From Ignavibacteriota bacterium (GTDB taxonomy: Bacteria > Bacteroidota > Ignavibacteria > Tepidaquicellales > Tepidaquicellaceae), in assembly GCA_026390735.1 (NCBI GenBank), contig JAPLFJ010000018.1, positions 1 through 56,547 on the forward strand: a stretch of DNA of 56,547 bases. The letters run 5' to 3'. This document shows positions 54,713 through 55,885 of the stretch, piece after piece. Each line of letters begins with the position of its first letter. Position 1 is the stretch's first letter. Made by a program: the position numbers and the translations under genes. The notes under the pieces were generated by a model. It saw nothing but the letters and a program-made list of their open reading frames with translations. It was not told the DNA's origin and searched no databases.

Positions 54713-54785
<73 letters not shown>

Positions 54786-54829
54786 CTTTGCATATATAAA
54801 TGTTGAACTCCGCTCTGCGGACTTAACAT

Positions 54830-54874
54830 GGTGTCGTACTCCGCCGGGGCGGACTTAAGAGGTCAGTCTGCAAA
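54830..54874 (+). pseudogene. 5' half of tRNA-Cys with palindrome in the D-arm (copy 1)
   Basis: Matches intact tRNA-Cys from its first base through the anticodon loop (GGTGTCGTAC ... GGTCAGTCTGCAAA), except that the D-arm stretch CCAAGTGG is replaced by TCCGCCGGGGCGGA (54840-54853). Similarity ends just after the anticodon loop. Confidence 0.8.
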
Positions 54875-54907
54875 GAGTTTAAAGTTAGTACAATGTTCAC
54901 AATATAT

Positions 54908-54952
54908 GGTGTCGTACTCCGCCGGGGCGGACTTAAGGGGTCAGTCTGTAAA
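54908..54952 (+). pseudogene. 5' half of tRNA-Cys with palindrome in the D-arm (copy 2)
   Basis: Same structure as copy 1: palindrome 54918-54931 in the D-arm, then CTTAAGGGGTCAGTCTGTAAA. The anticodon position reads GTA instead of GCA. The break is again just after the anticodon loop. Confidence 0.8.
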
Positions 54953-54999
54953 GAGTATAAGGTTAGAGTATAATTTAGAGTACTAGGTTAATAATAAAT

Positions 55000-55073
55000 G
55001 GTGTCGTACCCAAGTGGCTTAAGGGGTCAGTCTGCAAAACTGTTATTCATCGGTTCGAATCCGATCGACACCT
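55000..55073 (+). tRNA. tRNA-Cys (anticodon GCA)
   Basis: A 74-nt cloverleaf: acceptor GGTGTCG/CGACACC, D arm CCC..GGG, anticodon stem TCAGT/ACTGT around loop CTGCAAA (anticodon GCA) with one T-T mismatch at the stem top, variable TATTC, T arm ATCGG-TTCGAAT-CCGAT, discriminator T as needed by CysRS. CCA not encoded. It is the only complete copy in a cluster of five partial or full copies. Confidence 0.95.
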
Positions 55074-55087
55074 CTCAAATACCTGAG

Positions 55088-55333
55088 ATGTATTACACAT
55101 ATGTTTTAAAGAGCAAGAAAGACAATAAATTATATGTTGGTCAAACCTCAAATTTACTTCGAAGAATAATAGATCATAATCTCGGACTAGTCAAATCCAC
55201 AAAACATAGAAAACCTTTGATAAAAGTATATCACGAGACTTTTAATACCCGTTCTGAAGCAATGAAAAGAGAGAGTTATTTTAAGACAGGTGTAGGAAGA
55301 GACTTTTTATACAAACTAATAAACAAAAAGTAA
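55088..55333 (+). CDS. Single-domain GIY-YIG nuclease-family protein
   Basis: An 81-residue protein starting at the ATG at 55088; the frame is open upstream through the tRNA, but those residues are translated tRNA sequence. YTYVLKSKKDNKLYVGQTSNLLRRI gives the GIY and YIG strands (as TYV and YVG) and the catalytic arginine region; the later KVYHETFNTRSEAMKRESYFKTG has the conserved glutamate (E). Such stand-alone genes are often found right behind tRNA genes in Bacteroidota. The stop codon TAA (55331-55333) overlaps the start of a 3' tRNA-Cys half. Role unknown; DNA nicking is the family activity. Confidence 0.88.
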   Translation: MYYTYVLKSKKDNKLYVGQTSNLLRRIIDHNLGLVKSTKHRKPLIKVYHETFNTRSEAMKRESYFKTGVGRDFLYKLINKK

Positions 55334-55377
55334 AACTGTTATTTCCGCCGCGGCGGATTCGAATCCGATCGACACCT
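55332..55377 (+). pseudogene. 3' half of tRNA-Cys with palindrome in the T-arm (copy 1)
   Basis: Begins at the anticodon loop (AAAACTGTTATT) and ends with the exact tRNA 3' end (TTCGAATCCGATCGACACCT). CATCGG, the 5' strand of the T stem, is replaced by TCCGCCGCGGCGGA (55344-55357). With the intact tRNA it makes a direct repeat of 20 bases or more flanking the GIY-YIG gene. Confidence 0.8.
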
Positions 55378-55472
55378 CAAGACAATTTTAAATTTGAAAT
55401 TTCAAAGTTTAAATTTGAAAGAATTCCATATTTTCCATAATTCCTAACCCTTGAGTTATTTAGATAAGCTAC
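55378..55472. other. AT-rich spacer between 3' tRNA halves
   Basis: Holds AT-rich palindromic words (TTTAAATTTGAAATTTCAAA). The same words follow the second 3' half at 55517-55556, showing that the duplication included downstream flank. No gene seen. Confidence 0.5.
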
Positions 55473-55516
55473 AACTGTTATTTCCGCCTCGGTGGATTCG
55501 AATCCGGTCGACACCT
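55473..55516 (+). pseudogene. 3' half of tRNA-Cys with palindrome in the T-arm (copy 2)
   Basis: AACTGTTATT, then TCCGCCTCGGTGGA (55483-55496), then TTCGAATCCGGTCGACACCT. The single change in the palindrome still allows a G-T wobble pair, and the changed T-stem base shows this copy has drifted more than copy 1. Confidence 0.8.
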
Positions 55517-55885
55517 CAAAACAATTGTAAATTTTAAATTTGAAATTGCAAATCTAAAAAAGGTGAAATATATTCTTTTTCCTGCGACTCTACTGTTGCA
55601 AATCTTTTTTCACTAAACCTAAAAAATCTCTTCTCCTCTTTGTGTCCTTTGTATCTTTGTGGTGAAATCTTTTATCGTTTGTTTTCTCTAACCCTATTAA
55701 TATTTCAATAGGTAAATCAGTTGTTATATGTATTAACCAGTCAGCGTTTGTATCTCTATCCTGTCATTTGCATATTTAAAAATGCTTTTGTCGTCAATTC
55801 TTTCCATATTAGATGCAAATAAGGCTGAAATATTACGTGTTATCGTTACCTTAAGCTGATTTTTTTAAACTAAAATATTTTAGAA
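55517..55885. repeat. Intergenic region with reverse-oriented phrase repeat
   Basis: No gene. 55517-55556 repeats the flank of the first 3' half. Bases 55600-55672 are the reverse complement of the phrase family seen elsewhere (TTTGTGTCCTTTGTATCTTTG, ATCTCTTCTCCTC). The rest is AT-rich and probably contains the promoter of the exported protein gene. Confidence 0.55.

Follow-up and report, generated by a model that had tools for sequence, protein, structure and literature searches.

How does a tRNA gene come to be surrounded by halves of itself, with a nuclease gene in their midst? This question is raised by the tRNA-Cys locus of an Ignavibacteriota bacterium, contained in a stretch of 56,547 nt (the window, meaning here the whole stretch of DNA that was analysed). 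A first-pass annotation of the letters had proposed that an element carrying a fresh tRNA-Cys together with a GIY-YIG endonuclease gene had inserted repeatedly into the anticodon loop of the resident tRNA-Cys, each time restoring its function, and had named tandem duplication followed by decay as the rival.

Structure of the tRNA-Cys locus

By direct reading and a repeat scan, the order on the plus strand is two 5' pieces, the intact tRNA-Cys, the GIY-YIG gene and two 3' pieces. The order and positions given by the annotation are thus real (the second 3' piece starting at 55471), as is the split at the anticodon loop, where the 5' pieces end and the 3' pieces begin. The only tRNAs called by ARAGORN in the window are the two listed here:

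54713..54786, plus strand: tRNA-Gly (GCC), resident neighbour (ARAGORN; relatives)
54805..54826, plus strand: candidate third, decayed 5' piece, weakly resembling (by eye) the palindrome and CTTAA of the two clear 5' pieces
54830..54874, plus strand: 5' piece 1 of tRNA-Cys, with a palindrome (54840-54853) replacing part of the D arm, and an anticodon-loop end
54908..54952, plus strand: 5' piece 2 of tRNA-Cys, with a palindrome (54918-54931) replacing part of the D arm, and an anticodon-loop end
55000..55074, plus strand: intact tRNA-Cys, anticodon GCA (ARAGORN; RF00005, 60.8 bits)
55088..55333, plus strand: GIY-YIG open reading frame of 81 aa, catalytic domain only, UPF0213-like (PF01541; solved structures; catalytic residues)
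55332..55378, plus strand: 3' piece 1 of tRNA-Cys, with a palindrome (55344-55357) replacing the 5' strand of the T stem
55471..55517, plus strand: 3' piece 2 of tRNA-Cys, with an imperfect palindrome (55483-55496, TCCGCCTCGGTGGA)

The locus is compact, with gaps of 13-92 bp between its features, and the stop codon of the GIY-YIG gene (55331-55333) overlaps the start of the first 3' piece. The anticodon-loop ends of the 5' pieces read CTGCAAA and CTGTAAA. Apart from the GIY-YIG gene, all open reading frames in 54801-55517 have at most 52 aa, and the list of frames for this region holds no recombinase gene between the halves. In three of the four pieces, part of a tRNA arm is replaced by the perfect palindrome TCCGCCNNGGCGGA; the fourth piece has an imperfect one. 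These palindromes inside the pieces had been missed in the annotation.

Both pairs of pieces belong to longer direct repeats: one of 61 nt (D2, 93% identical) comprises the 5' pieces and the spacer after each, and one of 90 nt (D1, 86% identical) the 3' pieces and their downstream flank. Repeated nested insertion predicts an older GIY-YIG gene between the two 3' pieces, and the 92 bp that separate them (55379-55470) contain none. This part of the original proposal is therefore not supported; a simple nested double insertion is unproven for the window, since no older GIY-YIG gene precedes the second 3' piece. Because the spacers are shared and no older GIY-YIG gene lies between the 3' pieces, the doubling of the 5' pieces and of the 3' pieces probably reflects later local duplications.

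The tRNA-Cys locus in related genomes

The stretch with tRNA-Cys and the GIY-YIG gene was searched in 59 genomes (that of the window and 58 relatives), of which 46 matched, and 30 loci were read. A tRNA-Gly was called beside tRNA-Cys in 28 of these 30, the window included. Only four have a GIY-YIG gene beside tRNA-Cys: the window, G002 (same genus), G011 (another genus) and G032 (another family). No GIY-YIG gene was found within 1.5 kb on each side of tRNA-Cys in G003, of the same genus, and in G001 the contig ends 36 bp past the tRNA. In G002 (L011/L037) the order is tRNA, GIY-YIG gene, 3' piece, GIY-YIG gene, 3' piece, one of the gene copies containing a run of N. G011 has two tandem palindrome-bearing 5' pieces, the tRNA, the GIY-YIG gene and a 3' piece that begins in the D arm. 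Altered copies occur also where there is no GIY-YIG gene, as three tandem copies with two palindromes each in G030 (L015) and as one copy each in G036 and G033.

The pieces of the window genome (G000), G002 and G011 match the intact tRNA-Cys of their own genome at positions that vary among genomes (GGTGTC or GGCGTC, by eye), so that an imported tRNA copy is not evident at tRNA-Cys.

Small GIY-YIG genes beside tRNA genes

PF01541 matches were collected blind to tRNAs in the same 59 genomes and in 30 of the 33 named genomes to which a search with the protein of the window had led, the latter by title mostly bins of candidate phyla (Patescibacteria). We read 178 loci, taken by score among the matches listed and skipping some at contig ends (they include 29 + 40 new loci from relatives and 30 + 40 from named genomes). 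Leaving out open frames above 600 nt, domains below 60 aa and identical domains gave 170 genes, and 166 once the four reached through tRNA-Cys (L002, L008, L011, L032) were set aside.

Among these 166 small genes, from loci among the matches listed, 82 have a tRNA at 300 bp or less, and for the other 84 no tRNA is called at that distance. The wider set gives 85 of 170, covering all 20 isotypes, with the tRNA downstream of the gene in 47 cases and upstream in 38; within 500 bp there are 88 of 170, and every one of the 88 is on the strand of its tRNA (both counts among the matches listed). At L032 the tRNA-Cys is concealed by a run of N, which makes tRNA-Gly the nearest one called. From tRNA density, below 1% would be expected in the genome of the window, which has 40 tRNA matches in its 4.0 Mb; for the same number of tRNAs in 1 Mb the figure would be about 3%. 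As a control family of similar size we used the ParE toxin, for which one of 30 loci, out of 39 genomes with a match, was within 300 bp of a tRNA. Matches to PF01541 numbered up to 13 in genomes of about 1.2 Mb and 11 in Marixanthotalea marina XHP0103, a named strain rather than a metagenome bin (both among the matches listed).

Twenty loci without a called tRNA were scanned with Rfam: two adjoin a tmRNA and four adjoin tRNAs missed by ARAGORN. At the tmRNA loci (L104, L108) the GIY-YIG gene lies some 100-130 bp upstream on the same strand, with GC-rich palindromic sequence in between. In these 20 loci a group I intron appeared at L092 and at none of the 19 others. There (G053:C72, 1801-2047) a tRNA with anticodon GTA (by eye) contains the intron (RF00028, 91.8 bits) and is followed by a GIY-YIG gene and palindrome-bearing 3' pieces. 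A second GIY-YIG gene of the window genome (L001, G000:C25) has on one side a 3' half of tRNA-Pro with its terminator and on the other a further 3' piece, which contains two palindromes and is followed by that terminator again; at L188 the GIY-YIG reading frame enters a tRNA-Leu gene and stops within it; and at L324 the anticodon arm of the 5' piece seems to supply the start codon. A somewhat longer type of GIY-YIG gene (L082, L088, L091) has palindromes on both sides and no tRNA neighbours.

The GIY-YIG protein

The window protein matches PF01541 over residues 1-67 of 81 (E 3.4e-16, 59.7 bits). The catalytic residues of GIY-YIG nucleases are Tyr, Tyr, Arg and Glu; invariant in all 85 tRNA-linked proteins (median length 83 aa) are Tyr5, Tyr16, Gly18, Arg26, His30, Glu62 and Lys66. 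With both the domain and the catalytic residues present, we assign the protein by sequence to the GIY-YIG nuclease superfamily. In seven of seven close pairs dN (0.045-0.166) was below dS (0.30-2.2, saturated in three), and the gene is therefore under purifying selection.

The nearest solved structures are the UPF0213 proteins 1YWL (EF2693; E 8.8e-8) and 1ZG2 (BH0048; E 0.0034), which share sequence family and size and whose entries are named hypothetical. Matches to the structures of SLX1 (E 0.9) and pelota (E 0.86) are at noise level. In PHROGs the protein falls near homing endonucleases (E 3.4e-7), and in NCBIfam all matches are below cut-off, the best being a group I intron endonuclease model (E 0.0014). 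Modular homing endonucleases of the SegB or I-TevI type have a separate DNA-binding part after the catalytic domain. Such a part is absent here, as PF01541 takes up residues 1-67 of the 81.

We also followed tRNA isotype on a tree of the GIY-YIG proteins, built with FastTree only. It changes 47 times, whereas shuffled isotypes needed 67 changes on average and never fewer than 62. Within the relatives alone there are 14 changes against 25, and within the other phyla 33 against a mean of 38, a weak signal; none of 300 shuffles reached the observed value in any of the three comparisons. The tRNA partners have therefore been kept to a degree and switched often, and part of the isotype signal may be due to vertical descent.

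Pieces of tRNA and their breakpoints

The layout is not confined to tRNA-Cys. Of 84 tRNAs with a GIY-YIG gene within 300 bp, 53 have one or more pieces of their own sequence within 700 bp, and a control with other isotypes in the same regions gave matches in 9 of 385 pairings. Control tRNAs without a GIY-YIG gene had pieces in 7 of 49 cases, namely 2 of 24 in the window genome and 5 of 25 at tRNA-Cys of relatives, and further pieces without the gene were seen at tRNA-Asp of G091 and at L326. The latter (tRNA-Ala of G030) has tandem altered copies or 3' pieces. At L137, the tRNA-Phe of the window genome, a 5' piece with two palindromes lies upstream and an inverted copy of the 5' part of tRNA-Phe downstream, again with no GIY-YIG gene.

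Upstream pieces are centred in the 5' half of the tRNA in 48 of 54 cases, and downstream pieces in the 3' half in 43 of 55. In the list of pieces, all 54 upstream ones stop short of the final 15 nt of the tRNA, and all 55 downstream ones lack its first three. The breakpoints vary along the tRNA, and the idea of the anticodon loop as a fixed site is not supported: a 3' piece starts in the D arm in G011, and at L133 one begins near tRNA position 5.

This distribution also bears on a different origin of the halves, in which integrative elements with a tyrosine recombinase would have left them at tRNA attachment sites and the GIY-YIG genes would be their cargo. Some 3' halves do resemble the borders of attachment sites (L312 and L321, and L087 judging by eye from an integrase-like frame). 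On the other hand, pieces are as frequent upstream (54) as downstream (55), their breakpoints vary along the tRNA, and in the loci inspected the halves are separated by a few hundred bases with no recombinase. We regard this origin as highly improbable.

Insertion or duplication

The order of the pieces is not diagnostic by itself, because a tandem duplication that ends within the gene would also place 5' pieces upstream and 3' pieces downstream. Piece order was accordingly dropped as proof of insertion and replaced by a flank test and by comparisons of empty and filled loci. In the flank test, the 40 nt beyond the outermost piece were compared with the 40 nt beside the intact tRNA, with the 99th percentile of a cross-locus control as cut-off. 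The two readings can be separated in this way because duplication would copy the flank too.

The outer flank was unlike the inner one in 26 of 30 loci on the 5' side and in 17 of 25 on the 3' side, despite an average identity of about 99% between the flank-tested pieces and the tRNA (a high value being favoured by the search for near-exact matches). Flanks were alike, as after a duplication, at the remaining 4 of 30 loci on the 5' side and 8 of 25 on the 3' side; for pieces of at least 25 nt, these numbers were 0 of 8 and 2 of 9.

At tRNA-Asp, empty and filled alleles could be compared. In five genomes (G038, G024, G015, G005 and G014; L320, L313, L315, L317 and L319) a terminator directly follows the intact tRNA, with matches of 74-83% identity that include about 18 nt of the tRNA and are weak in G005 and G014 (E 5e-5 and 6e-4). 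In G035, G033 and G039 (L310, L311, L314) the homologous terminator comes after a palindrome-bearing 3' piece, and the intact tRNA and the GIY-YIG gene are located upstream of this displaced piece. Where compared (L101/L311, L230/L310), the intact copy of the filled loci has a different terminator. One empty genome (G038) and two filled ones (G035, G039) belong to one genus. The comparison covers 12 of 14 matching loci, among them a filled locus with another terminator (L323) and three with no called tRNA at the match (L312, L321, L316). Two of the last, in G038 and G024 (L312, L321), are lone 3' halves of tRNA-Asp with the native terminator, situated beside intact genes and without a GIY-YIG gene; together with L087 they are the tRNA-Asp 3' halves similar to attachment-site borders mentioned above.

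At tRNA-Ala the evidence comes from the other side of the gene. About 180 nt of upstream sequence lead into an intact tRNA in G032 (L325, 89% identity) and G030 (L326, 86%), and in G038 (L324) the same upstream region leads into a 5' piece with a hairpin, followed by the GIY-YIG gene and the intact tRNA. Here 11 of 14 matching loci were compared: L327, L328, L329 and L336 match the upstream coding part only, with no tRNA after it, and L330, L332, L333 and L334 match elsewhere, L330 being a filled tRNA-Ala locus (also L079). Further cases of presence and absence were found at tRNA-Asp in another genus, where G044 and G090 have neither piece nor GIY-YIG gene, G054 is filled and G091 has only a 5' piece (three loci were inspected; G089, L274, has the tRNA-Asp and no GIY match). 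In the genus of the window, tRNA-Asp is empty in the window genome and has a GIY-YIG gene in G002 (L102) and in G003 (L096, its frame interrupted by a stop), while tRNA-Phe has one in G001, the window genome showing just a 5' piece there.

As far as the comparison of alleles goes, these loci show insertion into tRNA-Asp and tRNA-Ala genes, one native half and its native flank being displaced outward with a second copy of that half in place, so that an intact tRNA stands beside the insert. They also show the nuclease gene between the displaced half and the completed tRNA, on the strand of the tRNA. The central idea of the annotation, namely that a resident tRNA is split by a GIY-YIG-bearing insert while a working copy stays, is thus supported at other tRNAs by the empty and filled loci and by the unlike flanks, and it is by analogy with them that we attribute the tRNA-Cys locus of the window to a GIY-YIG insertion. 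The element need not bring a whole tRNA: at L310, L311 and L314 only a 3' piece is seen, and a replacement half would therefore be enough. The pieces at tRNA-Cys and tRNA-Asp match the intact tRNA of their own genome, and the terminators of the restored copies differ from the native ones.

Tandem duplication from a point within the tRNA gene, with later decay of the copies and the GIY-YIG gene as a bystander or located at the duplication joint, would account for the shared spacers of the doubled pieces in the window, for the GIY-free tandem copies at L015 and L326 and for the minority of loci with similar flanks. As a general explanation we find it unlikely, in view of the flanks that differ in most loci around nearly identical pieces, the rarity of similar flanks next to long pieces and the native terminator or upstream region that remains outside the displaced half. 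It also leaves unexplained why GIY-YIG genes, unlike ParE, should occupy such sites.

Palindromes in the displaced pieces

A palindrome is present at 76 of 109 tRNA pieces and in 82 of 1155 random windows of the same regions. Where it directly adjoins the piece (37 loci), the D loop, the anticodon arm and the T arm account for most of the sites; in tRNA-Asp it replaces positions 51 to 60 at L099, L102 and L242. When both sides of a locus have a palindrome, its site in the tRNA is the same at L254, L239 and L217 and different at L130, L188, L205 and in the window.

Exact copies of TCCGCCNNGGCGGA number 48 in the genome of the window, which is 4.0 Mb in size; the pattern written backwards, used as control, has none. 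Three copies are in the tRNA-Cys locus. All other 45 were read: one is in a tRNA-Phe piece (L068/L137) and no tRNA piece was seen at the rest. Within the window the pattern is found also at 1305, 5825, 6183 and 6351, and several copies in the genome sit inside other repeated-looking sequence. In G054 and G091 an otherwise similar 5' piece of tRNA-Asp contains different palindromes at the same spot. Considering the scattered copies and this difference, we regard the palindrome as a host-wide repeat, and the notion that it is part of the element was abandoned.

Yet another explanation, which concerns the way the target is found and is compatible with insertion, is that a structure-directed, Slx1-like nuclease would act on DNA that forms hairpins or cruciforms (tRNA and tmRNA genes, palindromes) and its gene would accumulate at the breaks. 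In line with this are the palindrome enrichment, the GIY-YIG genes beside tmRNA (L104, L108), some tRNA-less genes between palindromes (L082, L088, L091), a protein that consists of the catalytic domain alone, and its nearest solved relatives, UPF0213 and, at E 0.9, SLX1. Against it, 45 of the 48 palindromes in the window genome are not near any of its six GIY-YIG matches, the isotype follows the GIY-YIG tree, which points to some sequence preference, and SLX1 is matched no better than pelota. We consider this explanation somewhat unlikely.

Comparison with known systems

The closest parallel is SegB of phages T4 and T6, a free-standing GIY-YIG homing endonuclease that cuts inside tRNA genes, adjoins tRNAs in phages and, in T-even phages, drives tandem amplification of a tRNA plus segB with a truncated joint (PMC13096335). 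We interpret its motif RAWTSGAAC as the complementary strand of the T-loop consensus. Both are GIY-YIG nucleases adjoining tRNA genes of many isotypes; unlike SegB, a phage gene, the present family is chromosomal and of about 83 aa, and a scan of viral contigs with one peptide pattern found one locus. The sections consulted report for SegB neither a place between displaced tRNA halves nor palindromes in such halves (PMC13096335).

The mORFs of fungal mitochondria, endonuclease genes accompanied by a duplicated gene end in atp6 and atp9 of Glomus and Allomyces (a GIY-YIG type in atp9), are similar in another respect. The mORF brings a replacement 3' end, creating a hybrid gene, and the native end is displaced downstream (PMC3630166, PMC4019555). 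In both cases an endonuclease gene enters an essential gene, the native end is displaced and the gene is restored. The mORFs belong to mitochondrial protein genes and are larger inserts, whereas the present element has tRNA genes as target and displaces 5' halves too. Group I introns, some with homing endonucleases, also invade bacterial tRNA genes (PMC3984707); they restore function by splicing, while here a second tRNA copy does so. Insertions in rRNA genes of CPR bacteria sparsely encode GIY-YIG proteins (PMC11270868). We found no description of the present arrangement in bacterial chromosomes among the titles and abstracts listed for the open-licence PMC literature, nor in the consulted sections of PMC13096335, PMC3630166 and PMC11270868.

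A model of the element

Taking these observations together, the window quite probably contains a single representative of a chromosomal element that is widespread and consists of a very small GIY-YIG gene with tRNA genes as its insertion sites. The insert would split the resident tRNA, one half being displaced outward with its native flank, and a second copy of the displaced half would complete an intact tRNA. We suppose that the nuclease cuts tRNA genes without the insert, as phage SegB cuts tRNA genes, and that repair then either uses the insert-bearing copy as template or duplicates part of the locus on the spot, with only those repairs surviving that leave one intact tRNA. The element would in this way be copied by homing, and the restoring half would arrive with the insert rather than by local duplication. 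Both the cleavage and the homing by the GIY-YIG protein are inferred. A point against the model is the protein itself, an 81-aa catalytic domain with no further part that might direct it to a tRNA gene. The GIY-YIG gene may be transcribed together with the tRNA, which would explain why it is never found antisense. The host palindrome in the displaced half probably either removes the recognition site or breaks the homology that would otherwise collapse the repeat.

A bolder version is possible, though we hold it only tentatively: minimal selfish elements of about 0.3 kb would reside inside essential bacterial tRNA genes, their catalytic-domain-only nuclease opening tRNA and tmRNA genes via foldback, each insertion bringing or making the missing half and taking over the tRNA promoter, and the palindrome-tagged halves being immune to cutting and to recombination.

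Similar arrangements recur in distant bacteria and at many tRNA genes, as if a selfish element were invading essential tRNA genes without killing its host. If this is true, bacterial tRNAs would provide a documented case of a selfish gene that enters an essential gene with neither intron nor intein, and one origin of tRNA pseudogenes and of tRNA arrays would be identified. Small GIY-YIG genes are numerous, and if those adjoining tRNAs are tRNA-gene homing elements, a little-studied set of nucleases would gain a life style.
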